From: Candidatus Bacteroides merdavium | GTDB taxonomy: Bacteria > Bacteroidota > Bacteroidia > Bacteroidales > Bacteroidaceae | Direction of reading: 5' to 3' | DNA length: 64,000 bases | Assembly (NCBI GenBank): GCA_019116805.1 | Contig: DXAV01000082.1 | Span: 1 to 64,000, forward strand | Shown: positions 1,491-52,826 of the stretch, one piece after another | How positions within the stretch are numbered: the first letter of the stretch is position 1 | Layout of the letters: every line of letters begins with the position of its first letter | Notes under the pieces: generated by a model | What the model was told of the DNA's origin: nothing | What the model saw: the letters and a program-made list of their open reading frames with translations, nothing else | Database searches by the model: none | Position numbers and translations under genes: made by a program

Positions 1491-1493
1491 TGT

Positions 1494-7819: not shown

Positions 7820-7848
7820 TTTTTGTTAAAATCTTTATGAAAGCTGGG

Positions 7849-7856
7849 CAAAGATA
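7849..7856 (-). promoter_or_regulatory. -7 element upstream of znuA
   Basis: On the minus strand TATCTTTG (7856-7849) matches TAnnTTTG about 30 bp before the znuA start. The -33 region is only a weak match. Confidence 0.5.
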
Positions 7857-7894
7857 CAAAGAATGTGTTAATTAACGGTAAAGTTTGGACATAT

Positions 7895-8566: not shown

Positions 8567-8586
8567 ATTTTTCTCTTTATGAATTC

Positions 8587-27424: not shown

Positions 27425-28894
27425 TCAGATTCTTTTTACCCAATATCCGTTCCCATACCTTGTATGTACCCTCCGTCCCAGTTGTGCCAGCAGGCGACTG
27501 AATGCGATGCAGGAACAATCGCGCAAGGCTGCCGGATTTTTCTTTTTCAGTACGGCATAGATGTCTGCCGCCGACATCAGGCGGGCACCGGCTTCGCCAG
27601 CCTTGGCGAACGCAAAGCAGCTGCCAATGAGCTCTTCGGCGGGTGTCACGCGATAGAACGGACGGTTGGCCGTTTGGATTTCCGCTTCTTCGGCTTTGCT
27701 GAACCAGCAACGCTCGCCGTTGTTCAGTTCGTGCAGGAGTTGGGCATAGAGTTGGGCATGGTCAATGGGGGTAGCGCAGTCGATGGCATGTTCCACCTCC
27801 ACGCAGATGAACCTTCGGCTGCCCGATAAGTCGGTCAACAGGTCGCGGCGGTTGCTGGTGCCGATGAAGGAGGCGATGCGTGGCAGGGGCTCGGCCGAGC
27901 GGCGGTAGGCGCGGCGTACGCGCAGGTCTTCCATCTGCATCAGGTTCTTCAGCTGGGGCATGCGGTTGGCGGGAAGGCGGTCGAATTCGTCAAGGTTGAT
28001 CAGTCCGTAGGAGGCCAACTTGTTTTCTGCCGATGAGGTATTAGTCAGGTCGAAACTTTCGGTGAAATAGTCGCGCAGTTCGGGGGGGAGCAGGAGGCGG
28101 CAGAAGGTGGACTTGCCCAGGCCTTGCCGAGTGCTGACCAGAAGCGGGGCTACACTGTTGGCACGGTGGCCACGGTTGCCGGAACCTGTCCACTGGGCCG
28201 TGACGGCCAGCATCCAGCGGTGGAAGGAACGTATCCATACTTCTTTATCGGACACTCTTCGGGCCAGTTCTGTCACACGGTCGCAGCCGTCCCACTTGGG
28301 CAGGTGGCTGAAATACAGGTCGAAGGGGTGGTAGACCTGCACATGATCGGACTCCACAAATCGTTTCACGTCGCGATCCCAGCAATCCACACCGCTCTCC
28401 ATCGCGCGAAGGGCGATGCCGTTCAGCGTGCGGCTATTTATGGGTGTATAAATAAGGTGGTGGGAATTGTCCACGGCCTCCATGTTCAGGCGGGCACATT
28501 CGGTACGCTCCGTCAGAAGATTGTAGCGGAAGGCGTAGTGCAGCCTTAGGTAGCTTGCGAGGCGCTTTATCACTTGTCTTTGCTTAGGTTCCTTTTCCTC
28601 CTTTTCTGCGGTGGGGTGGTTCTTAACGATGGTAGGATTCGCTTCTATCCATTCGGTTACTTCATTTTGTCCGTTCAGGGTGAAGAAGCGTTTTATGGGT
28701 TTCTCTGCTTGGGGTTTCCAAGTCAGGCGGATGGTGAATTCTCCGTCGCCTGTCGTGAGGAAGGCTTGTCCTGCGGGCAGGTGGGAACAGGCTTGGTTCA
28801 GGTCGCTGAGAAGTTGGTGGTAGGATTGTGCCGATGAAGGTGCAGGAGCCGTGTGTCGGCGAAGCAGTTGTTTCAGATGTACCAGTAGTTGCAT
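27425..28894 (-). CDS. VirE/VapE-type P-loop ATPase (DUF3874-like C-terminus)
   Basis: A 489-residue protein related to the virulence-associated E / primase-helicase group that is widespread as single copies in Bacteroides. The ATG at 28894 (MQLLVHLKQLLRRH) is preferred over an upstream in-frame ATG at 29056. The core has a P-loop-like STRQGLGKSTF (about 258-268) and a Walker B-like LINLDEFDRL (about 300-309), followed by an arginine-finger-like RAYRRSAEPLPRIASFIGTSNR. The C-terminal 90 residues (SAADIYAVLKKKNPAAL onward) resemble DUF3874. The N-terminal BT4734-type domain of larger relatives is reduced. Cellular function is not established; mobile-element ancestry is likely. The usual DUF4248, HU-family and amidase neighbours are missing. 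Confidence 0.78.
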   Translation of the reverse strand: MQLLVHLKQLLRRHTAPAPSSAQSYHQLLSDLNQACSHLPAGQAFLTTGDGEFTIRLTWKPQAEKPIKRFFTLNGQNEVTEWIEANPTIVKNHPTAEKEEKEPKQRQVIKRLASYLRLHYAFRYNLLTERTECARLNMEAVDNSHHLIYTPINSRTLNGIALRAMESGVDCWDRDVKRFVESDHVQVYHPFDLYFSHLPKWDGCDRVTELARRVSDKEVWIRSFHRWMLAVTAQWTGSGNRGHRANSVAPLLVSTRQGLGKSTFCRLLLPPELRDYFTESFDLTNTSSAENKLASYGLINLDEFDRLPANRMPQLKNLMQMEDLRVRRAYRRSAEPLPRIASFIGTSNRRDLLTDLSGSRRFICVEVEHAIDCATPIDHAQLYAQLLHELNNGERCWFSKAEEAEIQTANRPFYRVTPAEELIGSCFAFAKAGEAGARLMSAADIYAVLKKKNPAALRDCSCIAFSRLLAQLGRRVHTRYGNGYWVKRI

Positions 28895-29180
28895 AAAAAT
28901 TTTCGCTTGTTTTTCGTTTCTAAAGATACGACATACGGAAGGCGAAGTCAACCCTTTTTGGGGAAATAACGGACGATAATCAACTTTACGGCACCTTTTG
29001 GCATCTTTAGTCCGAGATGAAGGACTTCTTCTTTGTGAAGTTTCAACGGAAACCATTGGAAATGTGCGTTATACGTTGAAAGCAACTAAGCGCATTCATT
29101 GTGAAGGGAAGGTTCGTTTCACCGCAACTCATTTAAAGAAAGCGGTTTGCTTATAGGAGTGAAAGGATGAAGCCTGGGGA
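28895..29180. other. Gene-free stretch upstream of the VirE-type gene
   Basis: No convincing gene. It contains several GTGAA/TTCAC motifs (for example near 29034, 29099, 29128 and 29158), which echo the TTCAC-rich segment at 25790-26003, and it presumably holds the minus-strand promoter of the VirE-type gene. Confidence 0.4.
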
Positions 29181-31754: not shown

Positions 31755-34700
31755 ATGAAACACATCAGCCTTTTGGCTCTTCTTATTAGCACTTTCTTTT
31801 ATCATGTTTATGCTGCACCTCGGGACTTTTATTTTTCCAATCTGAATTTAAAGGACGGTCTGTCGCAGATTTCGGTATTGGATATTCTTCAAGACTCCAA
31901 AGGTTATATGTGGTTTGCCACAAGAAATGGGTTGAACCGTTATGACGGGAAAAATTTTGTAGTTTATAAAAATGACCCGAAGGACTCGTTGAGCTTGAGC
32001 AACAATCATATTTATTGTCTGGCAGAAGATTATAATCAGAATCTGTGGATTGGAACTTTTCACGGTTTGAATGTGTTGGATATGAAGACAAACAGAATGA
32101 CACGTGTAGTCAACAGTCCGTATTGGGAACTTGAAGAGATTGCAATCAATTGTCTGTTGGTCGATTCGCATGACCGTTTGTGGATAGGGACTGGACAAGG
32201 ACTTTATATATATGAGATACCAACAGGTAATTATCGTTCTTTTCAGCACATCGAAGAATTAAGGAATAAAGTCATTACTTCTATTTGCGAAACACACGAC
32301 GGGCAATTTTGGATAGGTACCTCTGGTGATGGGATATGGATCTGTAATCCGCAGTTACATGTGCAAAGGCATTTGACAGAGTCTTCACCCGATATTCGTT
32401 TGTCAGGAAACTCGGTATCTGTGATTTATGAAGATGTGAAGGGGAATGTTTGGGTAGGCAGTAAGTATACAGGACTCTGCCGGATTAATTTACAACAAAA
32501 TACGACTCACTTCTTTACGCAGTATAATAGTCCGCTGAACAGTAACAGTATTCGGCAACTTATAGAATATCAAGGACAGTTATTGATTGGAACTTTCGAC
32601 GGATTGTACGTGTTGGATCTGAATACGGATGAGATTGTCCGGCATTCGGATGTGTCGTTGAGACGTGGATATTTAACGCATTTTTCCGTTTATGCCTTGT
32701 ATGTGGACAAAAGTCAGACATTGTGGGTGGGAACCTATTCGGGTGGAGTAAACTACTCCAGTGTTCTTAATGACAGATTTGTATTCCATGATCCCGCTTC
32801 TATCTTGAATACTTATTTAAGTGTATATGGCATTATGGCATGCGGAGCTGACGATGATGTGTATATTGCAACGGAGGGGGGAGGAATTCTTGTGTATGAT
32901 TATAAGGAGGGCTCTAAATACACTTATTATCCGATTGAAGGAAAAGCTGTCCAGAAATATAATCAGAATATGGTGAAATGCCCTTATTTGGAAGGGGATA
33001 CTTTATGGTGTGGAACAGCTAAAGGAACTATCTATCGGTTTGATCTAAAAAAGAAGTTTTATACGTTAGTTTATCGTCTGCCGGAAGAGACAGCAGCCAT
33101 CTATTCGATATTGAGAGATGGGGCTGGGCGTATGTGGGTTGCCAATGCATCAGGAAAAGGATTGCTCTGTCGATGGCCGGATGGTAGGACACAGAAGGAT
33201 TTCCAGACGGCTGATGGTCGGATTTTGCCGGCTTTCAGTGCTCGTTGTCTGTTTGAGTTGGCGCCGGATGTAATGTTGTTTGGTACCCGAAGTCATGGCT
33301 TGTTCAGGTATGACTTGTTGTCAAAGAAATATGAACATTATTATGCGGGTGGAAAGGGAAGTGCACATTTGTTGAACAATTATGTAACTTCTATCTTGAA
33401 AGATCAGCGTGGAAGAATCTGGGTTGGCACATTTGGAGGCGGTATAGCCCTGTATGAGGATGGTAAAGGTATCATCAAATCGTATACAAAGGATCAGGGG
33501 TTGATTGATAACGAGGTTGCAGCTGTAGTTGAAGACAGAAAAGGTAATTTGTGGTTGTCTACTACCAGCGGAATTTCGTGTTTTAATCCTGAGGAGGAAT
33601 CTTTTGTAAATTATCACTTGAATAATGGCATTGGAATAGAAGAATTTACACCTCATAGCGGTATTTTGTTGCCCAACGGTGAGATTGCCTTTGGAGGTAA
33701 TAATGGTTTCATAACGTTCAATCCGGCAGAAATACAGCAAAATTCTTATGTACCTTCGTTGGTATTGAACAGTCTGACTATCAATAACCGGCTTATCAAG
33801 CCACAGGATGAAACGGGTATTTTGAATGTTGTGTTGGATGATGTTGATAAAGTAAGTTTGAAGTATAACCAAAATAATCTGTCCATCGCTTACAGTGCCT
33901 TGAACTATGTGTTTTCGGACCAGAATCAGTATGCTACTTTTTTACATGGGTACGATAAGGAATGGCATTATATAGGTAATCGAACGGAAGCCTACTATAC
34001 GAATCTCTCGCCTGGTACGTATGTGTTTGAGGTAAAGGCTGCCAATAACGACGGTGTGTGGCAGGAAAAAACCAGAAAGCTTGTGATTGAAATTCATCCA
34101 CCTCTGTGGAGAACCTGGTATGCCTATTCGTTTTATGTCGTCCTTGTGTTGACGGTTCTGGTACTTATCATGTATTATGTCAGCAAGAAGCAGAAGCTTG
34201 AGAGAGAACTGTACTATCAGCAACAATTGCAAAAGCAGCAGGATGAATTCCATGAAAACAAGATTCGTATGTTTACCAATTTCTCGCATGAATTGCGAAC
34301 TCCGTTGACATTGGTCATTTCGCCATTGCAGGAACTGGTAGCAATGTCGGGATTGACGAGCGTTGTCCGTAACAAGTTGGATTTGGTGTATAGTAATGCC
34401 CAGCGTCTGTTGTTGTTGGTCAATCAGCTGTTGGATTTGAGAAAGAGTCAGGAAGGAAAGCTGGATTTGCACATATCCAAGAGCAATCTGACACCTTTCT
34501 TGGAGGAGATTCATTTGGCCTTCTCTCATTTGGCCATGAGGAAGTCCATTCATTTTGAGTTTGAGAAAGATGAGAGTTCTTTTTATGCCTGGTTCGATAA
34601 ATCACTGGTTGAGAAGGTCGTTTTCAATCTTCTTTCCAATGCGATAAAGTTTACTCCCGATAATGGGCGCATCGTCTTGTCTTTGAAGAAATGTGGGTAT

Positions 34701-35843
34701 CAAGAGATTCCGACAGAATTGCGGACAACATTACCGGCGGAAATACCGCAAGAGATGGAGTTTGCCCTCATTAGTGTTTCAGATAGTGGTTGTGGCATAC
34801 CTGAGGAGGAATTGAAACACATATTCACTCCTTTCTATCAGGTAGAGGAGCAAGTGCCGGCAGAAGTAGGAACAGGCTTGGGGCTTAGTCTGGTACACAT
34901 GATAGTCAAGTTGCATCATGGTTGTATAACGGTCGATTCCAGCCCTTCAAAAGGTAGTGTGTTCACTGTGTATATCCCCATTCTTTCTTCGGCTTATTCC
35001 GAGCAGGATATCGAAAGGGGCAGTTCGGTGGCGGATGAGGTGATTGTTTCTGGAGGAACGCATGAAAGGGTACCCGTTGAACGGAAATGGACAGTACTGC
35101 TGGTAGAAGACAATGCCGATGTACGTCAGTATGTGAAGGAATATCTGGAAGATTATTATTACATTGTGGAAGCAGATAATGGAGCAGATGCTTTGGAGTT
35201 GGCTTTACAGAAATATCCAGACTTGGTGTTGAGCGACATTATGATGCCTAAGATGGATGGTCTGGAGTTGTGCAGGCGCATTAAGGATGATATTCAGCTG
35301 GAGCATATTCCGGTAGTTCTGATGACAGCCAAGTCGATGGTAGAACATATCAAAGAAGGTTTCTCGGTAGGGGCTGATGACTACATTGTGAAGCCTTTCA
35401 ACATTGAAATTCTGGTAACTCGGTTGCAAAATATGCTGTTGTCACGAGAAAAACTGAAAAAGTTGTATGGCAAAAAATTTGCACCTGATGCAATGGGAAT
35501 TGAGATTGTATCGGGAGACGACCGTTTTACCCAAAAATTGTTTGGAATCATTGAGAAAAATATTTCAAATCCAGATTTAAATATCGATTTGCTAAGTTCA
35601 GAATTAGGGTTAAGCAGATCCAATCTGTATCGAAAGTTAAAAGCGGTTACGGAATTGTCGCCGACAGAGTTGATACGGAATAAAAGACTGGAAATTGCGG
35701 CTAAACTTTTGTTGGAGTCATCTTATACGATCTCAGAGGTTGCGGTATATACAGGGTTTAACAGTCATGCCTATTTTACCAGTTGTTTCAAGAACTTTTA
35801 TGGATACTCTCCAACAGAATGGGTACTGATGAAGAAAGGATAG
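31755..35843 (+). CDS. Hybrid two-component system (HTCS) sensor-regulator
   Basis: A 1362-residue single-protein sensor, kinase and transcription factor. Order: signal peptide (about 1-20); periplasmic double beta-propeller of Reg_prop repeats (GLSQISVLDILQDSKGYMWF, then repeated LWIGT blades); Y_Y_Y domain (about 700-780); membrane helix (about 787-808); HisKA with FSHELRTPLTL (His near 846); HATPase with DSGCGIPEE; receiver domain (about 1112-1230) with LLVEDNADV and phospho-acceptor Asp in LVLSDIMMPKMDG; and a C-terminal AraC-type HTH (about 1260-1362). In Bacteroides these sense an oligosaccharide in the periplasm and activate the adjacent PUL. A weak promoter-like TATTTTTA lies at 31707. 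Confidence 0.96.
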   Translation: MKHISLLALLISTFFYHVYAAPRDFYFSNLNLKDGLSQISVLDILQDSKGYMWFATRNGLNRYDGKNFVVYKNDPKDSLSLSNNHIYCLAEDYNQNLWIGTFHGLNVLDMKTNRMTRVVNSPYWELEEIAINCLLVDSHDRLWIGTGQGLYIYEIPTGNYRSFQHIEELRNKVITSICETHDGQFWIGTSGDGIWICNPQLHVQRHLTESSPDIRLSGNSVSVIYEDVKGNVWVGSKYTGLCRINLQQNTTHFFTQYNSPLNSNSIRQLIEYQGQLLIGTFDGLYVLDLNTDEIVRHSDVSLRRGYLTHFSVYALYVDKSQTLWVGTYSGGVNYSSVLNDRFVFHDPASILNTYLSVYGIMACGADDDVYIATEGGGILVYDYKEGSKYTYYPIEGKAVQKYNQNMVKCPYLEGDTLWCGTAKGTIYRFDLKKKFYTLVYRLPEETAAIYSILRDGAGRMWVANASGKGLLCRWPDGRTQKDFQTADGRILPAFSARCLFELAPDVMLFGTRSHGLFRYDLLSKKYEHYYAGGKGSAHLLNNYVTSILKDQRGRIWVGTFGGGIALYEDGKGIIKSYTKDQGLIDNEVAAVVEDRKGNLWLSTTSGISCFNPEEESFVNYHLNNGIGIEEFTPHSGILLPNGEIAFGGNNGFITFNPAEIQQNSYVPSLVLNSLTINNRLIKPQDETGILNVVLDDVDKVSLKYNQNNLSIAYSALNYVFSDQNQYATFLHGYDKEWHYIGNRTEAYYTNLSPGTYVFEVKAANNDGVWQEKTRKLVIEIHPPLWRTWYAYSFYVVLVLTVLVLIMYYVSKKQKLERELYYQQQLQKQQDEFHENKIRMFTNFSHELRTPLTLVISPLQELVAMSGLTSVVRNKLDLVYSNAQRLLLLVNQLLDLRKSQEGKLDLHISKSNLTPFLEEIHLAFSHLAMRKSIHFEFEKDESSFYAWFDKSLVEKVVFNLLSNAIKFTPDNGRIVLSLKKCGYQEIPTELRTTLPAEIPQEMEFALISVSDSGCGIPEEELKHIFTPFYQVEEQVPAEVGTGLGLSLVHMIVKLHHGCITVDSSPSKGSVFTVYIPILSSAYSEQDIERGSSVADEVIVSGGTHERVPVERKWTVLLVEDNADVRQYVKEYLEDYYYIVEADNGADALELALQKYPDLVLSDIMMPKMDGLELCRRIKDDIQLEHIPVVLMTAKSMVEHIKEGFSVGADDYIVKPFNIEILVTRLQNMLLSREKLKKLYGKKFAPDAMGIEIVSGDDRFTQKLFGIIEKNISNPDLNIDLLSSELGLSRSNLYRKLKAVTELSPTELIRNKRLEIAAKLLLESSYTISEVAVYTGFNSHAYFTSCFKNFYGYSPTEWVLMKKG

Positions 35844-36016: not shown

Positions 36017-37180
36017 ATGAGAACATTGATTAAAACGTATTGTGCGGCTTTTTGTATGTCCGCAAGTATAATGGCTGCTTATGCTGCCAATGAGAATGGG
36101 CTGAATGTGCCTCAAGTATCCGAAGTTAGAGTTGAAGGCGTATGGAATCGTCAGAGTATTAAAGAACTTGGGAAGAAGGTTGCTGACTGGCAGATTAAGG
36201 AATTTCCCAATACCCGGCATGGTTCTAAAGACCAGCGTGGCTGGGTGGCTGGCGCTTGGTATATGGGCTTGTGCGACTGGGCTGAACTTTCGAATGATAC
36301 TACATATTATAAATGGATGAGAAAGACTTTCTCGGGGCAACGCTGGCAACTGGGTAATCGCATGTATCATGCGGATGACTTTTGTGTAGCCCAAACCTAC
36401 ATTGATTTGTACGAAAAGTTTAAGGATAAGAATATGTTGGAACCTACGTTGGCCCGTACAGAGTGGTTGGTGGGTCATCCTTCTAATGGAAGTGTAGATT
36501 TCAGAGTTCCTCATTTGCGTCAGGAACGTTGGACGTGGTGTGATGCCTTGTTTATGGCTCCTGCGGTGTATACCCGTCTTTATCGCTTGACAGGTAATCG
36601 GAAATATATGCATTTTATGGATGCAGAATTCAAGGCGACTTACAATCATCTGTATGATAAGGAAGAGAAGATGTTCTATCGAGACAGCCGCTACTTCGAC
36701 CAGCGTGAAGCGAATGGCAAGAAAATCTTTTGGGGCCGTGGTAATGGTTGGGTAATTGCCGGTTTGGCTGAGATACTGAGAACTTTGCCGGATTCTGATA
36801 CAGAATTCCGTCCTTTCTATGAGAAATTGTTTGTAGAGTTTGCTACCCGTCTGGCCGAACTTCAAGGTGAGGATGGTTATTGGCATGCCAGCCTCCTCGA
36901 TCCGGATAGTTATCCCTCTCCCGAAACGAGTTCAACGGGCTTCATTGTTTATGGTTTGGCGTATGGTATTAATCGTGGCTATCTGCCGGCAAAGGATTTC
37001 TTGCCTATTGTTAAGAAAGGCTGGCAGGCTTTGGCTGAGGCTGTGGCCCCGGACGGTAAGTTGTGTTGGGTACAGCCAATTGGAGCCGATCCTAAGAAAG
37101 TGACACGCGAAATGACGGAACTTTATGGACCGGGTGCTTTTCTGATGGCGGCATGTGAGATTTATAAATTATGCGACTAA
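36017..37180 (+). CDS. GH105 unsaturated uronyl hydrolase (YteR-like)
   Basis: A 387-residue exported (alpha/alpha)6-barrel enzyme; the signal peptide ends near AAYA (about 23). Conserved blocks are YHADDFCVAQ, WTWCDALFMAPAVY with the catalytic-type Asp (near residue 176), WGRGNGWVIAGLAEIL and PETSSTGFIVYGLAYGINRG. GH105 enzymes hydrate the double bond of 4,5-unsaturated galacturonic or glucuronic acid left by lyases and so release it from the next sugar, often rhamnose. It is the first gene of the oxidative module (next gene 19 bp downstream). With GH88 further on, the locus has two different unsaturated-uronide hydrolases, suggesting two linkage types. Confidence 0.93.
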   Translation: MRTLIKTYCAAFCMSASIMAAYAANENGLNVPQVSEVRVEGVWNRQSIKELGKKVADWQIKEFPNTRHGSKDQRGWVAGAWYMGLCDWAELSNDTTYYKWMRKTFSGQRWQLGNRMYHADDFCVAQTYIDLYEKFKDKNMLEPTLARTEWLVGHPSNGSVDFRVPHLRQERWTWCDALFMAPAVYTRLYRLTGNRKYMHFMDAEFKATYNHLYDKEEKMFYRDSRYFDQREANGKKIFWGRGNGWVIAGLAEILRTLPDSDTEFRPFYEKLFVEFATRLAELQGEDGYWHASLLDPDSYPSPETSSTGFIVYGLAYGINRGYLPAKDFLPIVKKGWQALAEAVAPDGKLCWVQPIGADPKKVTREMTELYGPGAFLMAACEIYKLCD

Positions 37181-37199
37181 ACATAATGAAGTGTAAGTT

Positions 37200-38474
37200 A
37201 TGTTGTCCCGTCGTGAATTTTTGAAAAATGTAGGCTTGGCCGGTGGAGGATTGTTTCTGTCGGCTTCGCCATGGCTTTCCGCTTTCTCCCAGAAAGAAGA
37301 GACGATGGGAAACCGTGCTCGTTTGGGCATCATCGGTCCGGGGTCACGAGGACGGTTTCTGATGAGCTTTTTGGCCAAGAACCCGAAGGCGGAAATAGCG
37401 GCTCTTTGTGACATTTATCAGCCTTCTCTTGACAAGGCGTTGGAGTTGGCACCTAATGCCAAAGTATATCGGGATTATCGTGCCTTACTTGATGATCCGA
37501 CGATAGATGCTGTGCTGGTGACTACTCCTCTAGACCGCCATTATCAGATGGCTATGGATGTACTTGATGCAGGCAAACATCTTTTCTGTGAAAAAGCTCT
37601 TTGCTATACGATCCCTGAATGTTATGAGGTTTATCAGAAATTTAAATCGGGTAATAGGGTCTTCTTCATTGGGCAGCAGCGGCTTTTTGATCCCCGTTAT
37701 ATTAAGGTTATGTCCATGGTACATGATGGCGTTTTTGGTGAAATTAATGCCATCCGTGCTTATTGGTACCGGAATAATGATTGGCGTCGTCCTGTCCCTT
37801 CTCCAGAGTTGGAGCGACTTATTAACTGGCGTCTCTATCGGGAGCACTCTAAAGGATTGATGACTGAGTTGGCTTGTCATCAGTTACAGACCGGTACTTG
37901 GGCCTTGAAGCGTATTCCTGACAGGGTGATGGGACATGGAGCGTTGACCTATTGGAAGGATGGACGTGAGGTCGATGATAATGTTACTTGTATATATATA
38001 TTTGATAATGGTGTCAAGATGACCTATGATTCGGTGATTTCCAATAAGTTTTATGGTCTTGAGGAAAAAATACTGGGTAAAAAGGGTACGGTAGAACCTG
38101 AGAAAGGAAAGTTTTATTTTGAGGAGGTAGAGCCTGCACCCGCTTTCATGAGGTTGGTCAGCGATATTGAAAACACATTGTTTGATGCAGTTCCTTTTGC
38201 TGGAACTAGTTGGGAACCGGAATCTGCAGATGCTAATACTGGGTATTATATTTTGGGAAAGAGCCCCAAAACAGATGGTACTTCATTGATGCTGGATGCT
38301 TTTGTTGAAGCAGTGATTACGGGAAAACAACCAAAAGGGATTGCGGAAGAAGCATATTATGCAAGTACGTTGTGTCTGTTGGGATATCAAGCTATGGAAG
38401 AGGGAGGCATGTTGTCCTTCCCGGATGCGTATAAACTGAATTATCTGAATCATTCCAATCCTCATTCATTGTGA
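37200..38474 (+). CDS. Gfo/Idh/MocA oxidoreductase with twin-arginine-like signal (first copy)
   Basis: A 424-residue NAD(P)-dependent oxidoreductase. The N-terminus SRREFLKNVGLAGGGLFL is a twin-arginine-type signal, so the folded, cofactor-loaded enzyme is probably exported like glucose-fructose oxidoreductase. A Rossmann fold starts at LGIIGPGSRGRF, and the EKP-type catalytic lysine motif appears as HLFCEKALC. The C-terminal half is the Gfo substrate domain (WRLYREHSKGLMTELACHQL). The next gene overlaps its stop if read from GTG. Together with the DUF1080 protein it would oxidise a glycoside at C3; this follows from known 3-keto-glycoside pathways and is not shown by this sequence alone. 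Confidence 0.9.
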   Translation: MLSRREFLKNVGLAGGGLFLSASPWLSAFSQKEETMGNRARLGIIGPGSRGRFLMSFLAKNPKAEIAALCDIYQPSLDKALELAPNAKVYRDYRALLDDPTIDAVLVTTPLDRHYQMAMDVLDAGKHLFCEKALCYTIPECYEVYQKFKSGNRVFFIGQQRLFDPRYIKVMSMVHDGVFGEINAIRAYWYRNNDWRRPVPSPELERLINWRLYREHSKGLMTELACHQLQTGTWALKRIPDRVMGHGALTYWKDGREVDDNVTCIYIFDNGVKMTYDSVISNKFYGLEEKILGKKGTVEPEKGKFYFEEVEPAPAFMRLVSDIENTLFDAVPFAGTSWEPESADANTGYYILGKSPKTDGTSLMLDAFVEAVITGKQPKGIAEEAYYASTLCLLGYQAMEEGGMLSFPDAYKLNYLNHSNPHSL

Positions 38475-38479
38475 TAGTT

Positions 38480-38719
38480 ATGAGAGATATTGTAATCAAG
38501 AAACACCAAATAAAAAGGGAGCTTTGTCTATTGGGCTTGTGCTTAGTGGTTGCTGAGGCTTTGAATATCTACGCAATAGTTCGCTATGAAGGACGTTGGA
38601 CAGAAGTGTTTATGTCATTGGGGTACGTATGTGTAGCTGGAGTAGTGATATATGTTGTTCTTGCTTTCTGCAGGTTGTTGTATGCCGGGTTGCGTAGTTT
38701 GTTCCGTTCGAGAAAATAG
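38480..38719 (+). CDS. Small two-helix membrane protein of unknown function
   Basis: A 79-residue protein (82 if the GTG at 38471 is used) with a basic N-terminus, two hydrophobic helices (about residues 15-33 and 46-70) and a basic C-terminus RSLFRSRK. It begins 5 bp after the oxidoreductase stop and ends 38 bp before the DUF1080 gene, so it is embedded in the operon. I recognise no family. Its position inside a redox gene set makes a membrane partner for the exported enzymes conceivable, but that is speculation. Confidence 0.6.
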   Translation: MRDIVIKKHQIKRELCLLGLCLVVAEALNIYAIVRYEGRWTEVFMSLGYVCVAGVVIYVVLAFCRLLYAGLRSLFRSRK

Positions 38720-38757
38720 AAAGTTTTTAATAGTATTTTAATCGATTTTTATAGCTT

Positions 38758-40134
38758 ATGAGAAAAAGTTTGGTTTTGGCTGCGTGCTTGTTTTCATGTA
38801 TGAGCCTTTCAGTTTGGGCACAGGCCAAATGGGAACCGTTATTTAACGGAAAAAATTTTAAAGGGTGGACCAAATTGAATGGAGAAGCCGAGTATAAAAT
38901 TGAAGACGGTGCCATTGTTGGTATCAGTAAAATGGGTACTCCCAATACGTTTTTAGCAACCAAAAAACAGTATGCTGATTTTATTCTGGAGTTTGAATTT
39001 AAAGTGGACAATGGCTTGAATTCTGGCGTACAGTTACGTTCGGCCAGTACAAAGGACTACAATAAAGGGCGTGTTCATGGTTATCAGTTTGAGATAGATC
39101 CTTCAGCACGTGCTTGGACAGGGGGGATTTATGATGAGGCACGTAGCGGTTGGCTTTATTCGTTGACAGATCCTGCCTCCAAAGCGGCTTTCAGAGCAGG
39201 TGAGTGGAACAAGGCTCGTATTGAGGCCGTGGGACAGAACATCCGTACGTGGGTGAACGGTATTCCTTGTACCAATTTGTTGGATCCGCAATCGGCCAGT
39301 GGTTTCATCGCTCTTCAGGTACATTCCATCGGTAAAAAGAAGGAATTGGAAGGAAAACAAGTTTGTTGGCGTAACATCCGTATCTGTACGGAGGGTTTGG
39401 AACAGGAAGTTTATCCCAAATCGCGTCGGGCTGCAGAGATCAATCGTCTGGATAATGTGCTTTCCGAACAGGAGCAGCGTGAAGGCTGGCAATTGTTGTG
39501 GGACGGCAAAAGTACCGAAGGATGGCGTGGGGCCAAACTTAATACCTTCCCACAGCATGGATGGGTCATTGAGGACGGTGTCCTGAAGGTGAAGAAGTCA
39601 GACGGTAAAGAATCGGCTAACGGAGGTGATATTGTAACCATCAAGAAATATCGGAATTTTGAATTGAAGGTAGATTTTAAGTTGACGCAAGGAGCCAATA
39701 GCGGTATCAAATATTTCGTAAATACAGATTGGAATAAGGGAGAAGGTTCTTCTATCGGTTGTGAATTCCAGATTTTGGACGATGCGCGCCATCCGGATGC
39801 TAAACTTGGAGTATTGGGCAATAGAAAACTGGGTTCTTTGTATGATTTGATTTCGGCTCCGGCAGATAAATTCCTTTATCCAATCTGGAAATCGGAAAGA
39901 GGAGGATACAATACCGCTCTGATCAAGGTCCGCGGTAATCATGTAGAACACTGGTTGAATGGTGTGAAGCTCCTGGAGTATGAACGTAATACGGATATGT
40001 GGCAGGCGCTGGTCAACTATAGTAAATATCAGAAATGGTCAGGCTTTGGTTGTTCAGAAACAGGAAACATCCTTTTGCAGGATCATGGAGATGAAGTTTG
40101 GTTTAAGAATATAAAAATCAAGGAATTGCCTTGA
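38758..40134 (+). CDS. Double DUF1080 protein (3-keto-glycoside hydrolase/lyase family)
   Basis: A 458-residue exported protein (signal peptide about 1-22) made of two concanavalin-like DUF1080 domains. Domain 1 (about 24-215) begins [15 protein letters not shown] and has [20 protein letters not shown]; domain 2 (about 238-457) begins [15 protein letters not shown] and has [20 protein letters not shown]. The matching motifs show an internal duplication. DUF1080 (PF06439) proteins cleave 3-keto-disaccharides, acting after C3 oxidation of a sugar by a Gfo/Idh/MocA enzyme; both partners are here. Which domain is catalytic and which binding cannot be told. Confidence 0.9.
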
Positions 40135-40152
40135 TTTATAACAAGAAAGAGT

Positions 40153-40938
40153 GTGGAGCATATCTGTCGGAATATGAGAGGAGCAAGTCTGTTGTATGCA
40201 TGGTTTGAAGCTATGCATACACGGATAGACCTTCTGCTGTATCATCTGGATTTTTCTGAAAGGGAATTGCTCCTTTTAACTGATGGCATACAGGAAGAAG
40301 TGGTGCGAATAGAAGCATTCGGCAGCCGCTTTCTTCCTTGTAGTGAAGTTTCGGCCGTCAATACTTCCATACCTGGAGAGTGGACAAATGTCTCGGTTGA
40401 GCTTTTGCAGATTATCATAGATTGTATGGATTACGCGGTGAAGACCGATGGGTTGTTTGATATTACAGCTTCTCCCGAAAGTAGAGGAATATCGTTGTCC
40501 GAGAAGCTTGAGGTTGACGTAAACCGATGTGCTGTAAGGCGTCTTTCGGAATCTGTCCGTATTGACCTGTCCGGCTATCTGAAGGGCTATGCACTGGGAC
40601 GTTGCGTGAACTTGCTCCGTAAGGGTGGAATAAATGATGCTTTGCTCAGCTTCGGGAATAGCTCGGTATATGGGATGGGTAATCATCCTTGTGGTGACGG
40701 ATGGCCGGTTTCTACCAGGTTTTGCCCGGAGAAGGTGTATCGTTTGTGTAATGCCTGTTTGACCACTTCCGGAAACTATGCTGAAGGCAGAATGCATATT
40801 GTTCATCCGTTGACCGGTGAATTGATTAGTGGAAAGAAGGAAGTTTCGGTGTTGACCGACCGTCCCGAGGAAGGTGAGGTGATGTCCATCGTGCGTTTTC
40901 TTCAACAATACGGTTCTTCCCCGTCTGTAAGTAAATGA
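40153..40938 (+). CDS. ApbE-like FAD:protein FMN transferase lacking a signal peptide
   Basis: A 261-residue protein of the ApbE/DUF2271 fold. Visible blocks: EEVVRIEAFGSRFLPCSEVSAVN near the N-terminus, TDGLFDITASP, the IDLSGYLKGYALGRCVNLL helix, LLSFGNSSV, and TTSGNYAEGRMHIVHPLTGE, which holds the metal/flavin-binding region. ApbE enzymes attach FMN covalently to a Thr/Ser of redox proteins such as NqrC/RnfG. Usual members are about 330 residues with a lipobox; this one is shorter with no signal peptide, so it would act in the cytoplasm. The start is GTG 40153 (AAGAAAGAG just upstream) or ATG 40174. Its place between DUF1080 and the second oxidoreductase is unusual. Confidence 0.78.
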   Translation: MEHICRNMRGASLLYAWFEAMHTRIDLLLYHLDFSERELLLLTDGIQEEVVRIEAFGSRFLPCSEVSAVNTSIPGEWTNVSVELLQIIIDCMDYAVKTDGLFDITASPESRGISLSEKLEVDVNRCAVRRLSESVRIDLSGYLKGYALGRCVNLLRKGGINDALLSFGNSSVYGMGNHPCGDGWPVSTRFCPEKVYRLCNACLTTSGNYAEGRMHIVHPLTGELISGKKEVSVLTDRPEEGEVMSIVRFLQQYGSSPSVSK

Positions 40939-40974
40939 ATAAAAAGTCAATAAACAAATAAATATTTGATATCA

Positions 40975-42417
40975 ATGAAAAACAGGGATAATTCGCGTCG
41001 TAATTTTTTGCGTCAAGTATCTACATTGGCCGCGGCAGCTGCCGTTATGCCTCATTTAGTTCATGGTGAGAATCTTTCAAGCCCCTTGGTCTCTCCACGG
41101 GTATTAGGTGCCAATGAAAAAGTAAATTTGGCCTGTGTGGGCATCGGTAATCGTGGTGAACAGATTATCAAGGCTTTTGCTAAAACAGGATTGTGTAACA
41201 TTGTGGCTCTTTGTGATATAGATATGGGTGCCAAGCAGACGCAGTCCATCTTGAAAATGTATCCGAACGTTCCTCGCTTTCAAGATTTCCGACAGATGTT
41301 CGACAAGATGGGGCGTGACATCGATGCTGTCTGTATCGGTACTCCCGACCATAGCCACTTCCCCGTCACTATGCTGGCCATGTCTTTGGGTAAGCACGTC
41401 TATGTGGAGAAGCCCATGGCGCACACTTTCTATGAGTGTGAACTGATGATGGAGGGAGAAAAGAAGTACAAAGTGGTTACTCAGATGGGTAATCAGGGGC
41501 ATTCAGAGGCAAACTATTTCCAGTTCAAGGCCTGGCAGGATGCAGGTATCATCAAGAATGTGCGTGCGGTGACTGCCCATATGAACAGTGCGCGTCGTTG
41601 GCACGGCTGGGATGCAAAAATGAAGACTTACTTGCCAGGAGAAAGCATTCCTAATACGTTGGATTGGGATAGTTGGCTCTGTGGTGAACAGTATCATGCC
41701 TATAACAAAGATTATATCAACGGCCAGTGGCGTTGCTGGTATGATTTCGGTATGGGAGCCTTGGGTGACTGGGGAGCACATATTCTGGATACGGTGCATG
41801 AATTCTGCCAGCTGGGTCTTCCTACAGAGATCAACATGCTTCGTGCCGATGGTCACAATCCTTTCTTCTATCCATTCTCGTCCACCATTCAGTTCCGTTT
41901 CCCGGCTCGTGGCACCATGCCGCCAGTTGACATTACTTGGTATGACGGTTTGAATAATTTGCCCGATATCCCCGAAGGCTACGGATCGGTAGAACTTGAT
42001 CCTAATATTCCGGCCGCCAGCAACGGCAAGATCCGGCCGGCTAAGTTAAATCCAGGAAAGATAATTTATACAGACGATTTGACCTTCCGCGGTGGTTCTC
42101 ATGGTTCCACTCTTTCTATTATTCCTGAAGAAAAGGCTAAGGCGATGGCATCCCGTCTGCCCGAAGTGCCCAAGAGTCCGTCCAATCACTTTGAGAACTT
42201 CTTGTTGGCTTGCAAGGGACAAGAAAAGCCTCGTTCACCTTTCAGCGTGGCTGGTCCTTTAAGTCAGGTTTTCTGTTTGGGTGTGATTGCCCAACAACTG
42301 AATGCGCACTTGTGCTTCGATCCGAAATTGAAGTTGTTTACGAACAGCCCGGTAGGCAACGTTCTGTTGCGTAGAGGAGTACCGCGTAAGGGATGGGAAG
42401 AGTTTTATAACTTGTAA
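40975..42417 (+). CDS. Gfo/Idh/MocA oxidoreductase with twin-arginine-like signal (second copy)
   Basis: A 480-residue oxidoreductase of the longer subgroup. The ATG at 40975 is used; upstream codons in frame have only a TTG. The N-terminus SRRNFLRQVSTLAAAAAVMP is a twin-arginine-type signal. Rossmann motif LACVGIGNRGEQ, EKPM catalytic motif in HVYVEKPMAH, and tryptophan-rich WLCGEQYHAYNKDYINGQWRCWYDFGMGALGDWG, which typifies the exported Bacteroidetes subgroup. It differs clearly from the first copy, so the two probably act on different sugars or run opposite directions (C3 oxidation and later reduction). Last gene of the oxidative unit, followed by array C and a terminator. Confidence 0.9.
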   Translation: MKNRDNSRRNFLRQVSTLAAAAAVMPHLVHGENLSSPLVSPRVLGANEKVNLACVGIGNRGEQIIKAFAKTGLCNIVALCDIDMGAKQTQSILKMYPNVPRFQDFRQMFDKMGRDIDAVCIGTPDHSHFPVTMLAMSLGKHVYVEKPMAHTFYECELMMEGEKKYKVVTQMGNQGHSEANYFQFKAWQDAGIIKNVRAVTAHMNSARRWHGWDAKMKTYLPGESIPNTLDWDSWLCGEQYHAYNKDYINGQWRCWYDFGMGALGDWGAHILDTVHEFCQLGLPTEINMLRADGHNPFFYPFSSTIQFRFPARGTMPPVDITWYDGLNNLPDIPEGYGSVELDPNIPAASNGKIRPAKLNPGKIIYTDDLTFRGGSHGSTLSIIPEEKAKAMASRLPEVPKSPSNHFENFLLACKGQEKPRSPFSVAGPLSQVFCLGVIAQQLNAHLCFDPKLKLFTNSPVGNVLLRRGVPRKGWEEFYNL

Positions 42418-42702: not shown

Positions 42703-44631
42703 ATGAAGAAATTTATTTTATTATTAGTTGTGCTTTATGCTTGTGTGCTGGGGATGAAAGCTGAAACTAAAGTAATCCCCGTTATCCAAGTAACGTCCGT
42801 TTGGGACATGGAGCATCTGGCCAAAGTGAAGAAACAACTTCGGAAGCCTTTTTATACAGCGTCTTATGGAGCATTGCTTCAAGAAGCGGACGATTGGTTG
42901 AAACAGGAGCCGCTTTCGGTCATGATGAAGAAGCAGGTGCCGGCCAGTGGTGACAAGCATGATTATATGAGTATCGCCCGATATTATTGGCCTGACCCGT
43001 CGAAGCCCGACGGACTTCCCTACATAAATAAGGACGGAGAGGTAAATCCTGAAATCTTCGATTACGACCGCTATCCTTTGGGACAGATGGTGGACAGGGT
43101 CATTGCGTTGACATTGGCCTGGTATTTCAGCGGGGAAGAACGGTATGCGGCTGAAGCTACGAAACAGGTACGCGTTTGGTTCTTGGATAAAGACACTCGT
43201 ATGAATCCGAATCTGGAGTATTCGCAAGTGGTGATGGGAAAGGACAATAACAAAGGACGCAGTTCAGGACTTATTGATACCTACTCCTTTATCGAAATGC
43301 TGGAGGCAGTGACGCTGCTTGAGAAATCACGCTCGTTTACAGAGGCAGACAGCAAGGCACTGAAAGCGTGGTTTGAACAGCTGACAGAATGGATGCTGAC
43401 AAGCCCACAAGGTAGGAAAGAGGCCGCCAGTGCAAATAATCATAGTGTGTCCTACGATACGCAGGTTATTGCTTTTGCTCTCTATTCGGGTAACCGAAAG
43501 TTGGCTGAAGAGACAATCAAGGCTTTCCCTGAAAAACGCCTTTTCCGCCAGGTGGAGCCAGATGGCAGCCAGCCGCAAGAACTGCGCAGGACACTTGCTT
43601 TCCACTACTCCAGAGAGAACTTGACCCATGTCATCAATATCATGCTGATGGCGAAACGAGCCGGCTTGCCTATTGACCGACTGGAGTCGGCAGACGGAAG
43701 AAGTTTCTACAAAGCAATAGATTTCCTCACTCCATATGTTGAAAAAGGTCAGGAGGCATGGCCCTATCAACAGATTAGCGGGTGGGAGGGAGAAGTACAG
43801 AGTTTCTGTAAGGATCTGTATCGCATTGCTTCTTGCCTGAATCCTGCGAAGAAGGAGGATTATCTGCGCCTTTTCCGCTCCCATCATGTGTATCATCTGA
43901 AGGACCGTTTCAATCTGTTGTTTTTGGATGAAGACCTGCTAGCTGGATGTTCTCCTAAAGTAATATTGAAATTGGATGATTTGTCGGTGAAGAACCATAT
44001 ATGCAGTTGTGCATCTGTGATGGATGTATTGAAACGACGTGGAATATCGGCCTCATTTGGTGTCATTATGCAACGTTGCGATGCTACTCTGCAATCGTCC
44101 TTACGCCCTTACATGCAAGCCAAGGATGCGGAAGGAAACCGCCTTTTCGAATTCTGGCATCATGGATACGATCACAAACGCCCTGAATTCGGAGGGGCCT
44201 CCTATGAACATCAGAAGCGCCATTTTGAGCTGGCTGACTCTCTGGGCAAGGCGATGTTGGGTGTTGAACTGACTACTTTTGGAGCTCCTTTCAATCAGGT
44301 GGACAGTTTGACGGCACGGGTTATTCAAGAAAATGGTGGTTATCGGTATGTGTTCTTTGCCAACGAACGTCTGTTTCAGGGTACAGGTATTTGTGTCCTG
44401 AATAATCGGATCAATATGGAGGATGGTACCGGTAAGGTGGATTACAAGTATTTCCTGAAGAACTATAAGGCTGGAGGAGCAGTAGAGAAACCCTACATCG
44501 TTCTGCAGGGACATCCCAACCAATGGGACGAGCAAAGGATAAAGGAGTTTGTGCAGATTATAGAATTCCTGAAAAAAGGAGGTTGCGAGTTTGTATTGCC
44601 TTCTCAGATGGATATAATGACTAATTTATAA
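42703..44631 (+). CDS. Fusion of PL38-like (alginate lyase superfamily) lyase and polysaccharide deacetylase
   Basis: A 642-residue exported protein (signal peptide about 1-20). Residues about 25-405 form an alginate-lyase-superfamily (PF05426, PL38-like) helical domain, with the catalytic-type motif NNHSVSYDTQ (from about 245), a YYWPDPSKPDGLPY entry block and WPYQQISGWE. Residues about 418-640 are a polysaccharide-deacetylase-like domain: VILKLDDLSV (metal Asp pair), FWHHGYDH (metal His), TTFGAPFN and YIVLQGHPNQWDE. PL38 members cut glucuronan or related uronic polymers by beta-elimination. Combining it with a deacetylase suits an acetylated uronic polymer. The fusion is in one frame with no break, and the GH2 gene follows 19 bp later. 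Confidence 0.82.
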   Translation: MKKFILLLVVLYACVLGMKAETKVIPVIQVTSVWDMEHLAKVKKQLRKPFYTASYGALLQEADDWLKQEPLSVMMKKQVPASGDKHDYMSIARYYWPDPSKPDGLPYINKDGEVNPEIFDYDRYPLGQMVDRVIALTLAWYFSGEERYAAEATKQVRVWFLDKDTRMNPNLEYSQVVMGKDNNKGRSSGLIDTYSFIEMLEAVTLLEKSRSFTEADSKALKAWFEQLTEWMLTSPQGRKEAASANNHSVSYDTQVIAFALYSGNRKLAEETIKAFPEKRLFRQVEPDGSQPQELRRTLAFHYSRENLTHVINIMLMAKRAGLPIDRLESADGRSFYKAIDFLTPYVEKGQEAWPYQQISGWEGEVQSFCKDLYRIASCLNPAKKEDYLRLFRSHHVYHLKDRFNLLFLDEDLLAGCSPKVILKLDDLSVKNHICSCASVMDVLKRRGISASFGVIMQRCDATLQSSLRPYMQAKDAEGNRLFEFWHHGYDHKRPEFGGASYEHQKRHFELADSLGKAMLGVELTTFGAPFNQVDSLTARVIQENGGYRYVFFANERLFQGTGICVLNNRINMEDGTGKVDYKYFLKNYKAGGAVEKPYIVLQGHPNQWDEQRIKEFVQIIEFLKKGGCEFVLPSQMDIMTNL

Positions 44632-50568: not shown

Positions 50569-52230
50569 ATGAAAAAATATTTTTATATTATTTGGGCAGC
50601 TTTGTGTGTTACAAGCTGTAGCCTTGATATCGAGCCGGAAACAGAGTTGACTGATCTTCAGTTCTGGAAATCAGAAACGGATTTACGTGGTGCATGTAAT
50701 TATTTATATCGAGATTTGCCAGGATTTTCTCACGACATGCGATCTGAAGAACTTGTAGGACCTAATCAGAATAGTATTTCTAGTGGCAATCGGACGGTCC
50801 CGAATACTTCTAGTGATTGGACAGATCCTTATGATAAAATAGGTCGATGCAATAATATTGTAATGAAAGGAAGTGAAGCTCCGTTGGCAGAGGCACAAAA
50901 AAATCGTTGGATTGCTGAAGCGCGCTTTTTCCGTGCGTATCATTATTTTGATTTGGTAAAAAAGTATGGCGATGTTCCTTTGATACTTAAAGTGTTTGAT
51001 TCAACTGATGATCCGGAGATAAAGAAAGCGCGTGATTCTCGTGAGACCGTTTTGCAGCAATGTTATGCTGATTTACAATTTGCGGCGCAATGGCTTCCTG
51101 ATATAGATAAATTGACGGATGAGGCCAACTGGGGACGTGTCTCTCGTTCTGCGGCTTTGGGTATGATTATGCGAATTGGTTTGTATGAGGGGACATACAT
51201 TAAATACCATAATTTATCTGAAGGAGACTTGCGAAGCCATCTTTTAAAAGCGATTAATGCGGCAGATACAATTATTAACATTGAAAAGAAGCATGAACTC
51301 TATCCTGATTTTCAGACGTTATTCTATTTTGAGGGTGAGGGTCGCCAAAATAAGGAAAATGTATTTGTAAAAGTATATGGACCCGATAAAACAGGAATTG
51401 TGCATAATAACTCTCGCGGCCTTGAAAATGCGGCTGCTGTTAGTCGGCAGATGCTGGATAACTTTTTGTATGCGGACGGACTTCCAAGAGAGATTTCACC
51501 TTTGCGTGTCGTTCCTGAAGTAAGTTATAGTGATATAATTGAGAATCGTGACCCACGTCTGAAGATGACGATTTACTCTATTAAGGAGCAAGCTTATAAG
51601 GGACCTTATACGCCTTTTAAAAATGATGATCAGACACATGGTTATGGTTATCCTATTAAAAAAGGCTTTATGGCCGATCAATGGGCAACAAGTAGTAAAG
51701 AAACCGTTGACAAGATGATTATCAGATATGCAGAGGTCTTATTATCTTATGCTGAGGCGTTGTATGAATATAATGGTGGAATAACGGATGAAGAACTGGA
51801 CGAAACGGTTAATCTTGTTCGTGCCCGTGTTGGTTTTGATGTAAAACTGACAAATGCTTTTGTTCAAGAACATCAGTTGGATATGTTGCAGGAGATTCGT
51901 AGGGAACGTATGGTTGAGTTCATAGATGAAAATCTTCATTATGATGATATCATTCGCTGGAAGACGGCAGAGGTTGTATTGCCTAAAGCGATGGTCGGAT
52001 TGTTGTATAACGAAAATGAGACTACTAAAGAACGTGGTGAGTTGGGTAATCGTTTTACAGATGAAAACGGATATTATAATGGAGTAAAGGTTTACGATCA
52101 GGCCAACCTTTATGTTATTGAAGAAGCCAGTTCTCGTAGTTTTGATCCGGATCGCGATTATTTGTATCCTATACCGACTTACGAGATATCTACTTCGAAT
52201 GGGAATGTTAAACAGAATCCTAAATGGTAA
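50569..52230 (+). CDS. SusD/RagB family glycan-binding lipoprotein (PUL B)
   Basis: A 553-residue surface lipoprotein with lipobox VTSC (Cys17) followed by SLDIEPE. Typical SusD blocks are ARFFRAYHYFDLVKKYGDVPLI, YAEVLLSYAEALYEY and the closing YPIPTYEISTSNGNVKQNPKW. It starts 12 bp after susC and forms the lid of the transporter. Sequence identity to the PUL A SusD is low by eye, so the two bind different glycans. Confidence 0.95.
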   Translation: MKKYFYIIWAALCVTSCSLDIEPETELTDLQFWKSETDLRGACNYLYRDLPGFSHDMRSEELVGPNQNSISSGNRTVPNTSSDWTDPYDKIGRCNNIVMKGSEAPLAEAQKNRWIAEARFFRAYHYFDLVKKYGDVPLILKVFDSTDDPEIKKARDSRETVLQQCYADLQFAAQWLPDIDKLTDEANWGRVSRSAALGMIMRIGLYEGTYIKYHNLSEGDLRSHLLKAINAADTIINIEKKHELYPDFQTLFYFEGEGRQNKENVFVKVYGPDKTGIVHNNSRGLENAAAVSRQMLDNFLYADGLPREISPLRVVPEVSYSDIIENRDPRLKMTIYSIKEQAYKGPYTPFKNDDQTHGYGYPIKKGFMADQWATSSKETVDKMIIRYAEVLLSYAEALYEYNGGITDEELDETVNLVRARVGFDVKLTNAFVQEHQLDMLQEIRRERMVEFIDENLHYDDIIRWKTAEVVLPKAMVGLLYNENETTKERGELGNRFTDENGYYNGVKVYDQANLYVIEEASSRSFDPDRDYLYPIPTYEISTSNGNVKQNPKW

Positions 52231-52250
52231 AAGACATAAATTATATAGTT

Positions 52251-52826
52251 ATGAGAAAGTTTGTTTTTATTTTAATGGCAGTTACTCTGTGTGGGATGTT
52301 TACAAATTGTGGTGATGATGAATGGGGTAACAACAACCCTGCAATGGAACATATATATTATTATGGATTAGACAATGAAGCTTATCCGGGTGGTAATGAA
52401 AAAGTATATAATGTAGCTCAGGGGCAAACTGTTGCTATTCCATCTAGATTCTGGAGTGCTTTTATTCGCTCGTATAGTCCCGAAGTATATTATTATACCT
52501 ATTCCAAAAACGAGGATGGTGAGATATTATCTTCTCCGGAGTTGGTTCGCGGAGTAGATTACCAGGTTGTGAATCAGGATGGTGAAGTCTTGATTCCCGA
52601 TGAAAATGGAGCTTATTCAATGGTTTGGCCGAATGCCAAGCAAGGGATACAGAACATTTACATTAAAGCATTAAATGGAAATAAGGGAATGATACGCGTA
52701 TTGACTTTTGATCCGAAAAAGACAATGAACAGTAGTGATGTAAGTAGTACTACAATAGTTCTGACTAATGAGTATGAGGTCCGTGCTTTTACTGAAAATT
52801 ATTATGTTACGGTTCATATTCAATAG
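52251..52826 (+). CDS. Small surface lipoprotein, probable glycan-binding protein of PUL B
   Basis: A 191-residue lipoprotein with lipobox FTNC (Cys20) followed by GDDEWGNN. An upstream in-frame start at 52224 would overlap susD by 7 bp; ATG 52251 gives the proper signal peptide. The body is beta-rich with many Tyr/Trp residues (YYYGLDN, FWSAFIRSYSPEVYYYTY) and looks like an Ig/DUF1735-type domain seen in SusE-position proteins. Position directly after susD suggests surface glycan binding. No catalytic motif is seen. A strong hairpin at 52842-52885 separates it from the lyase genes. Confidence 0.75.
   Translation: MRKFVFILMAVTLCGMFTNCGDDEWGNNNPAMEHIYYYGLDNEAYPGGNEKVYNVAQGQTVAIPSRFWSAFIRSYSPEVYYYTYSKNEDGEILSSPELVRGVDYQVVNQDGEVLIPDENGAYSMVWPNAKQGIQNIYIKALNGNKGMIRVLTFDPKKTMNSSDVSSTTIVLTNEYEVRAFTENYYVTVHIQ

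Follow-up and report, generated by a model that had tools for sequence, protein, structure and literature searches.

A conserved gene trio in Bacteroidota and its possible role in flavin-linked sugar oxidation by an exported Gfo/Idh/MocA dehydrogenase

Positions 36017..42417 of a 64,000-nucleotide stretch of Candidatus Bacteroides merdavium (contig DXAV01000082.1 of assembly GCA_019116805.1; hereafter the window) hold six adjacent genes, named in an earlier reading of the sequence (the original prediction) as an exported oxidative glycan-processing module. A check of open reading frames (ORFs) and family matches confirmed this gene list, all six genes being genuine and correctly placed on the plus strand. 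The gaps between them are almost nil, and no plus-strand terminator-like site falls within those gaps. The subject of this study is a trio within the run, comprising a Gfo/Idh/MocA dehydrogenase (GfoA), a small membrane protein (SM) and an ApbE-like protein that we predict to be a flavin transferase for GfoA.

The first gene (36017..37180) encodes a GH105/GH88-type unsaturated glucuronyl hydrolase (PF07470, 313 bits) and is an optional neighbor of the others. GfoA (37200..38474) matches PF01408, PF22725, and PF02894, carries a twin-arginine signal (TIGR01409), and is predicted to be exported and flavinylated. SM (38480..38719) is a two-helix protein of 79 residues, or 82 if read from a GTG at 38471. 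A two-domain 3-keto-disaccharide hydrolase (DUF1080; 38758..40134) follows, matching PF06439 in two stretches (301 bits against a cut-off of 26.8) and having a near-full-length relative of known structure (PDB 4jqt, 695 bits). The ApbE-like gene (40153..40938) precedes GfoB (40966..42417, ATG at 40975), which resembles the BT_2158-like glycoside 3-dehydrogenases. GfoB scores 289 bits to NF058561 (BT_2158_fam), under the cut-off of 750 and aligned over 1-431 of 487, and 212 and 210 bits to PDB 8tdf and 8tdh, respectively; by sequence we class it as a relative of BT_2158 and not as an equivalog.

The conserved core of this run is the trio of ApbE-like protein, GfoA, and SM, with DUF1080 and GfoB being optional and GH105 more so. 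Two kinds of count identify this unit, from a genome sample and from gene neighborhoods. The sample comprised 198 genomes spread over the order, searched with cut-offs of E ≤ 1e-3 for SM, E ≤ 1e-35 for the ApbE-like protein, and E ≤ 1e-60 for GfoA, scoring per genome up to 28 SM, 13 ApbE-like, and 8 GfoA candidates (up to 4 for GfoA in a phylum-wide search). SM was found in 11 genomes, the ApbE-like protein in 10, and GfoA in 11, with all three present in 10. All ten ApbE-like genomes fall within the eleven SM genomes (Fisher's test for SM and ApbE-like, p = 5e-16). Outside the complete trios, one genome (G157) has SM beside an ApbE fragment and no GfoA, and another (G125) has only a weaker Gfo match of 303 bits.

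Neighborhoods were fetched in two independent ways, by an ApbE-like profile and by SM alone. The profile yielded 432 confirmed genes, and among the best 80 are 37 Bacteroidota loci (L003-L036, L039, L040, and L042), on which the counts below rest. Three acidobacterial loci (L037, L038, and L041) stand outside the 37, and L043-L082, mostly from other phyla, were left uncounted; in three of the latter (L043, L045, and L073) there is a Gfo match near ApbE. GfoA is present in 34 and SM in 33 of the 37 Bacteroidota loci. When SM alone was used, GfoA directly adjoined it in all 11 loci recovered from the same genus, and the ApbE-like gene was present in nine (not in L097, near a contig end, or in L102). 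Ten more SM loci, drawn from across the order, show GfoA adjoining SM in nine and the ApbE-like gene in nine, counting the G157 fragment; one locus (G092) is apparently divided between two contigs, the second carrying ApbE beside a piece of GfoA. The trio also extends beyond the order to other classes (L119, L120, and L121). Matches to DUF1080 and GfoB occur in 18 and 20 of the 37 loci, respectively, in the stretches examined, where module genes were recognized by single-sequence or profile searches that may miss divergent members of either family, and weak GH105 matches (72 and 85 bits) occur in 2 of the 11 loci fetched by SM.

As the original prediction expected, Gfo genes are accompanied by SM and the ApbE-like gene far more often than chance allows, and the ApbE-like gene belongs to the same gene run instead of standing apart, the module genes being neighbors in nearly all loci. 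The idea that these two proteins partner both oxidoreductases is borne out for GfoA and not for GfoB, which is as optional as DUF1080 and less so than GH105.

GfoA has the hallmarks of its family: a Rossmann domain (73.9 bits to PF01408) together with the Gly motif, the EK motif, and the catalytic His. All 46 aligned sequences keep G46, G48, E131, K132, and H227. It scores higher to the iolG model (107 bits) than to BT_2158 (79 bits), both far under their cut-offs. We predict that it is exported via the twin-arginine translocation (Tat) pathway, TatC being present in all seven genomes tested. One GfoA clade has LRxF or LRRF in place of RRxF, so that export is less certain for some members; were GfoA to stay in the cytoplasm, the flavin would need a different explanation. 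An unusual Pro-Trp pair follows the N-terminal hydrophobic stretch in 59 of 64 core GfoA sequences versus none of 24 intermediates, which suggests a retained membrane anchor that may contact SM. We considered whether the pair strictly defines the SM-linked form and rejected this, as five core members miss it (one truncated and one with an over-extended N-terminus), leaving a tendency only.

SM has no match in Pfam or NCBIfam. It comprises two hydrophobic segments, with mean counts of Lys plus Arg of 4.5 in the N-terminal tail and 4.1 in the C-terminal one, compared with 0.8 in the loop between the segments, and because the tails are basic and the loop is not, both tails are predicted to lie inside. 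Met1, Glu14, Asn29, and Tyr58 are invariant in an alignment of 28 sequences (numbered from the ATG), and Glu42 and Arg65 nearly so. Around a candidate SM fusion (G014, 24 bits in a 424-residue frame), the 3 kb examined contained none of the module genes, and the candidate was dropped as a chance match.

The ApbE-like protein scores above the curated cut-off of PF02424 and is assigned the ApbE fold. The catalytic triad of ApbE is Asp285-Ser241-His257 in Vibrio cholerae numbering, according to PMC12052999. Across 42 aligned ApbE-like proteins the catalytic Ser and Lys are kept in all and the His in 38, whereas Glu stands for the Asp in all 42. By inspection, no signal peptide is present in the window protein or in the aligned Bacteroidota module members, which sets them apart from the periplasmic lipoprotein form, and the acidobacterial proteins L041, L045, and L037 have hydrophobic N-termini. 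We predict it to be a cytoplasmic flavin mononucleotide (FMN) transferase for GfoA.

The candidate site of attachment is a GfoA loop, A334-G-T-S337-W-E-P-E341 (38199..38222, plus strand), singled out by its conservation, low structural confidence, and alignment. Its consensus, [AG]-G-x-[S/T]-W-x-x-E, is among the most conserved parts of GfoA, and in the structure model the predicted local distance difference test (pLDDT) score falls under 50 at residues 329-336 and 338-342. Sequences were merged when identical over their last 200 residues for loop conservation (65 to 54) or over their last 250 residues for motif counts. The column of Ser337 (codon 38208-38210) is Ser or Thr in 64 of 64 distinct core GfoA sequences (56 Ser and 8 Thr), with Gly two residues earlier in 63; as relatives share descent, such counts, like the 119 of 120 below, measure conservation and not independent events. 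W338 and E341 are conserved as well as S337. Ser337 is the best acceptor candidate because it is the only loop position that is Ser or Thr throughout.

Relatives of GfoA occur in 54 of 395 genomes across the phylum (E ≤ 1e-50). Those in other orders and classes, and the one in G125 from the same order, carry DGV[S/T]GA[S/T] or close variants in this very loop, and no SM was found in the stretches examined around them. Among the 120 database relatives listed of 3441, [SA]GA[ST] is present in 119 and the full canonical flavinylation motif, [DN]xx[ST]GA[ST], in 91. The column is Ser or Thr in 21 of 24 intermediate Gfo enzymes; among 66 paralogous Gfo enzymes it is Thr in two and a gap in 36, with no full motif in any. 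The background rate of the full motif is 6 in 1284 other ORFs of at least 250 residues (spurious frames included) and 12 in 2400 shuffled relatives. Bridging loops (GGATW, GGASW, and AGASW), found in group B and in divergent members, link the two forms. MAFFT runs under six settings and three samplings placed Ser337 on the canonical acceptor residue in 14 of 18 cases. The other four runs place it two residues away. The loop itself is unchanged under either register, and Ser337 is likely, though not certainly, the exact acceptor residue; its role as FMN acceptor is moderately supported.

The association with ApbE recurs in other lineages. At L161 (8109-10408, genome G620), a Gfo gene whose loop reads VDGVTGAT and an ApbE gene of full score (266 bits) share one base, where the Gfo start codon overlaps the ApbE stop codon. 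Matches to SusC, SusD, and DUF1080 lie nearby; this is probably the cleanest natural test case. In two Terriglobia loci (L041 and L045), a Gfo with an AGAT loop adjoins an ApbE with a hydrophobic, signal-like N-terminus. Eight wider loci outside the order (L149-L156) have a Gfo with a GA[ST] loop, the full motif being present in seven, with VAGAT instead in L149, and DUF1080 in six of the 18-kb stretches examined. Together these loci indicate that the enzyme carries an ApbE-site-like loop in more than one lineage, each time in the same setting of 3-keto chemistry. A genome-level version of this association, the presence of ApbE wherever a GA[ST]-loop Gfo occurs, held in 14 of 14 genomes and was yet rejected as weak, since 7 of 14 control genomes have ApbE matches too. 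Two group B loci (L157 and L158) have ApbE with a GfoA of the Pro-Trp type and a GGATW loop, a second small Gfo gene adjoining ApbE; neither SM nor a DUF1080 match was detectable in the stretch examined.

Upstream of the module, a hybrid two-component sensor/regulator (31755..35843, plus strand; Reg_prop, HisKA, HATPase_c, Response_reg, and HTH_18) is the likely regulator of the locus. Downstream are an alginate-lyase/deacetylase-type protein, GH2, a SusC-like protein (assigned from length and sequence alone), SusD, and two PL8 lyases. These neighbors mark the setting as a polysaccharide-utilization locus, probably one targeting an acidic glycan. The protein at 42703-44631 joins an alginate-lyase-type domain to a weakly scoring polysaccharide-deacetylase-like domain, and a 200-residue ORF without a Pfam match (52224-52826) lies between SusD and the first PL8 lyase. 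On the minus strand at 27425-29056, a VapE-like protein with DUF3874, of mobile-element type, separates two glycan-utilization clusters. The same genome holds a second copy of the module (G000 contig 30, L097, bases 424-8873) with a hybrid two-component protein, GfoA, SM, GfoB, and DUF1080; the contig continues for 423 bases past DUF1080, the position where an ApbE-like gene would be expected. Elsewhere, Bacteroides faecichinchillae has a possibly decaying copy (L012, 7092-8730) in which DUF1080 lies in several fragments before the ApbE-like gene with no GfoA or SM, and a Parabacteroides metagenome-assembled genome has an orphan ApbE-like gene (L033, 8974-9792) with neither GfoA nor SM within the 18.7 kb examined.

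We propose the following function for the trio. GfoA would fold in the cytoplasm holding a nicotinamide cofactor, and the signal-less ApbE-like enzyme would move FMN from flavin adenine dinucleotide (FAD) onto Ser337 in the flexible loop. GfoA would then be exported through Tat and held at the inner membrane by its N-terminal helix and SM. There, acting on oligosaccharides that the lyases and GH105 set free, it would oxidize a sugar, probably at the C3 hydroxyl; cleavage of the 3-keto product would fall to the DUF1080 protein, and GfoB would perform a second oxidation or the reduction. Finally, the covalent FMN would reoxidize the reduced nicotinamide adenine dinucleotide (NADH) bound to GfoA and hand the electrons to an acceptor in the membrane, either SM together with quinone or a different carrier. 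The sequences show the conserved trio, the loop and its relation to the canonical motif, and an ApbE fold in which most catalytic residues are kept; from these we infer every biochemical step above as well as the identity of the acceptor residue and of the substrate. As a whole, a single functional unit combining FMN transfer, Tat export, sugar oxidation, and FMN-linked NADH reoxidation stands at about even in our estimation. Its parts differ: flavinylation of GfoA by the ApbE-like enzyme is slightly favored, and a complete electron route to the membrane is tentative, falling somewhat below even. The original prediction is thus partly supported and becomes more specific: Ser337 of GfoA offers its flavin-linked path a probable site at the molecular level, and electron carriage by SM, the route to quinone, and the use of GH105 products as substrate stay conjectural.

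Several observations weigh against this proposal. The window loop, AGTSW, misses the canonical motif, and [ST]GA[ST] was found in none of the 13 window proteins scanned. Four of the 18 MAFFT runs, and HHalign as we interpret it, shift the register by two residues. In L132, L138, and L140, a Gfo beside ApbE has no canonical motif, its column being Met in one alignment and Thr or Ser in another. The catalytic Asp of ApbE is replaced by Glu in all 42 ApbE-like proteins, the His is absent in four, the segment linking TSGN to the His is shortened, and the window protein has Ile in place of a Mg-binding Thr. The RRxF/RKxF motif is not shown by 10 of 64 core GfoA sequences, one of them truncated. The linkage has exceptions: ApbE-like genes L012 and L033 have neither GfoA nor SM nearby, L006 has neither at a contig edge, L039 has no SM, and L102 has GfoA and SM with no ApbE-like gene nearby. 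No haem- or quinone-binding protein was found within the trio, and across its 28 sequences SM lacks an invariant Ser, Thr, or His that could hold either kind of cofactor, making it unlikely to carry flavin or haem itself.

A 3-keto pathway of oxidation, elimination, hydration, and reduction can run redox-neutrally, so an external electron path is not strictly required. GfoA and GfoB might keep one tightly bound NAD(H), reduced in the first step and reoxidized on the 3-keto product, with the ApbE-like protein and SM serving only in assembly or membrane attachment and with no external acceptor. The resemblance of GfoB to the glycoside 3-dehydrogenases 8tdf/8tdh and BT_2158 and the DUF1080 matches in 18 of 37 ApbE-like loci fit such a module, as does BT2158, which is described as periplasmic and required for disaccharide use in PMC11300592. 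It leaves unexplained, however, the strict linkage of an ApbE fold to GfoA and the canonical flavinylation motif in the same loop of GfoA relatives, and we regard it as unlikely.

Less probable again is that the ApbE-like protein uses another donor or has lost transferase activity, loading or checking a cofactor (FAD or NAD) before Tat export while Ser337 binds or receives a group other than FMN. The universal change of Asp to Glu, the shortened loop, and the predicted cytoplasmic location would all agree with this, and a step before export suits a Tat substrate; against it, Ser and Lys are kept in 42 of 42 sequences and His in 38, and the gene of one canonical-motif relative overlaps that of an ordinary ApbE. 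We think it improbable as well, and slightly more so, that the enzyme flavinylates another protein, either SM or a substrate elsewhere in the genome. SM is linked to the ApbE-like gene as tightly as GfoA is, but it has no invariant Ser or Thr and was set aside as the flavinylated protein, [ST]GA[ST] is missing from the 13 window proteins, and the conserved Ser/Thr loop belongs to GfoA. Last, the [AG]Gx[ST]W loop might serve the structure of GfoA or its contact with SM and resemble a flavinylation site by chance. This would suit the equal conservation of W338 and E341 and the two-residue register uncertainty, yet it is very hard to reconcile with the canonical motif in 91 of 120 listed relatives versus 0 of 66 paralogs and 6 of 1284 other ORFs, and with Gfo-ApbE adjacency in several lineages.

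The trio may exemplify a new class of exported sugar dehydrogenase, in which a Gfo/Idh/MocA enzyme with bound nicotinamide and ApbE-attached FMN joins 3-keto glycan breakdown to membrane electron transport. Such a class would occur in Bacteroidota, with signs of it in Acidobacteriota, and take two forms, one with the canonical motif and an ordinary periplasmic ApbE and the other, found most often in Bacteroidales, having a cytoplasmic ApbE of its own and a two-helix membrane subunit. We advance it tentatively, at a little under even. Extracytoplasmic nicotinamide enzymes cannot exchange NADH, and how they are reoxidized is usually left unanswered unless the system is redox-neutral. Covalent FMN would, if the proposal is true, be a direct way to reoxidize them; the Gfo/Idh/MocA fold would join the known targets of protein flavinylation, gut glycan degradation would be tied to respiration, and a family of membrane proteins of about 80 residues without a Pfam or NCBIfam name would gain a function.

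In the open-access PubMed Central literature, judged mostly by titles and the opening lines of abstracts, we found no flavinylated Gfo/Idh/MocA enzyme, dedicated ApbE for one, SM protein, or pairing of ApbE with DUF1080, and a term search found "Gfo" and "MocA" absent from the main texts of two flavinylation surveys (one being PMC11334425). That survey includes relatives of noncovalent flavoproteins among ApbE flavinylation substrates. Already known are degradation by an exported Gfo with DUF1080 (BT2157-BT2159; PDB 8tdf, 8tdh, and 8tda; PMC11300592 and PMC9007349) and flavinylation by ApbE. With the ApbE FAD:protein FMN transferase and its substrates (NqrB/NqrC, FMN-bind, Flavodoxin_4, and FMN_red), the proteins described here have in common the fold, the conserved Ser and His, and, as predicted, a Gly two residues before the Ser/Thr acceptor and an extracytosolic redox role. 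They differ in that the transferase lacks a signal peptide, has Glu for Asp, and has a shortened loop, and in that the substrate we propose belongs to the nicotinamide-dependent Gfo/Idh/MocA sugar dehydrogenases.

The Zymomonas glucose-fructose oxidoreductase is a Tat-exported Gfo enzyme with a tightly bound nicotinamide cofactor, which it recycles via a second sugar, and it is not known to require a flavin or membrane partner. Its fold is shared here (PDB 1ofg, 1ryd, and 1rye, of which 1rye was matched). A search for a solved GfoA-type structure with the motif loop matched 98 PDB sequences, and the 60 listed were all, judged by name, other Gfo/Idh/MocA-type enzymes or unnamed dehydrogenases. 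In the lactose 3-dehydrogenase LacABC of Caulobacter, LacA is a GMC-type flavoprotein with a cytochrome partner; a Pfam scan of the eight proteins from GH105 to GH2 found no GMC or cytochrome domain, and no search was aimed at LacABC. Common to that system and the one proposed here are membrane-bound periplasmic C3 oxidation and proposed DUF1080 cleavage (PMC9007349); the same paper reports 3-keto-glycoside cleavage for BT2157 and proposes it for the Caulobacter relative. The 3-keto-glycoside pathway of Bacteroides thetaiotaomicron (BT2157-BT2159; NCBIfam BT_2158_fam and BT_2159_fam) likewise combines an exported Gfo dehydrogenase with DUF1080, and to it the module described here adds GfoA, SM, and the ApbE-like protein.

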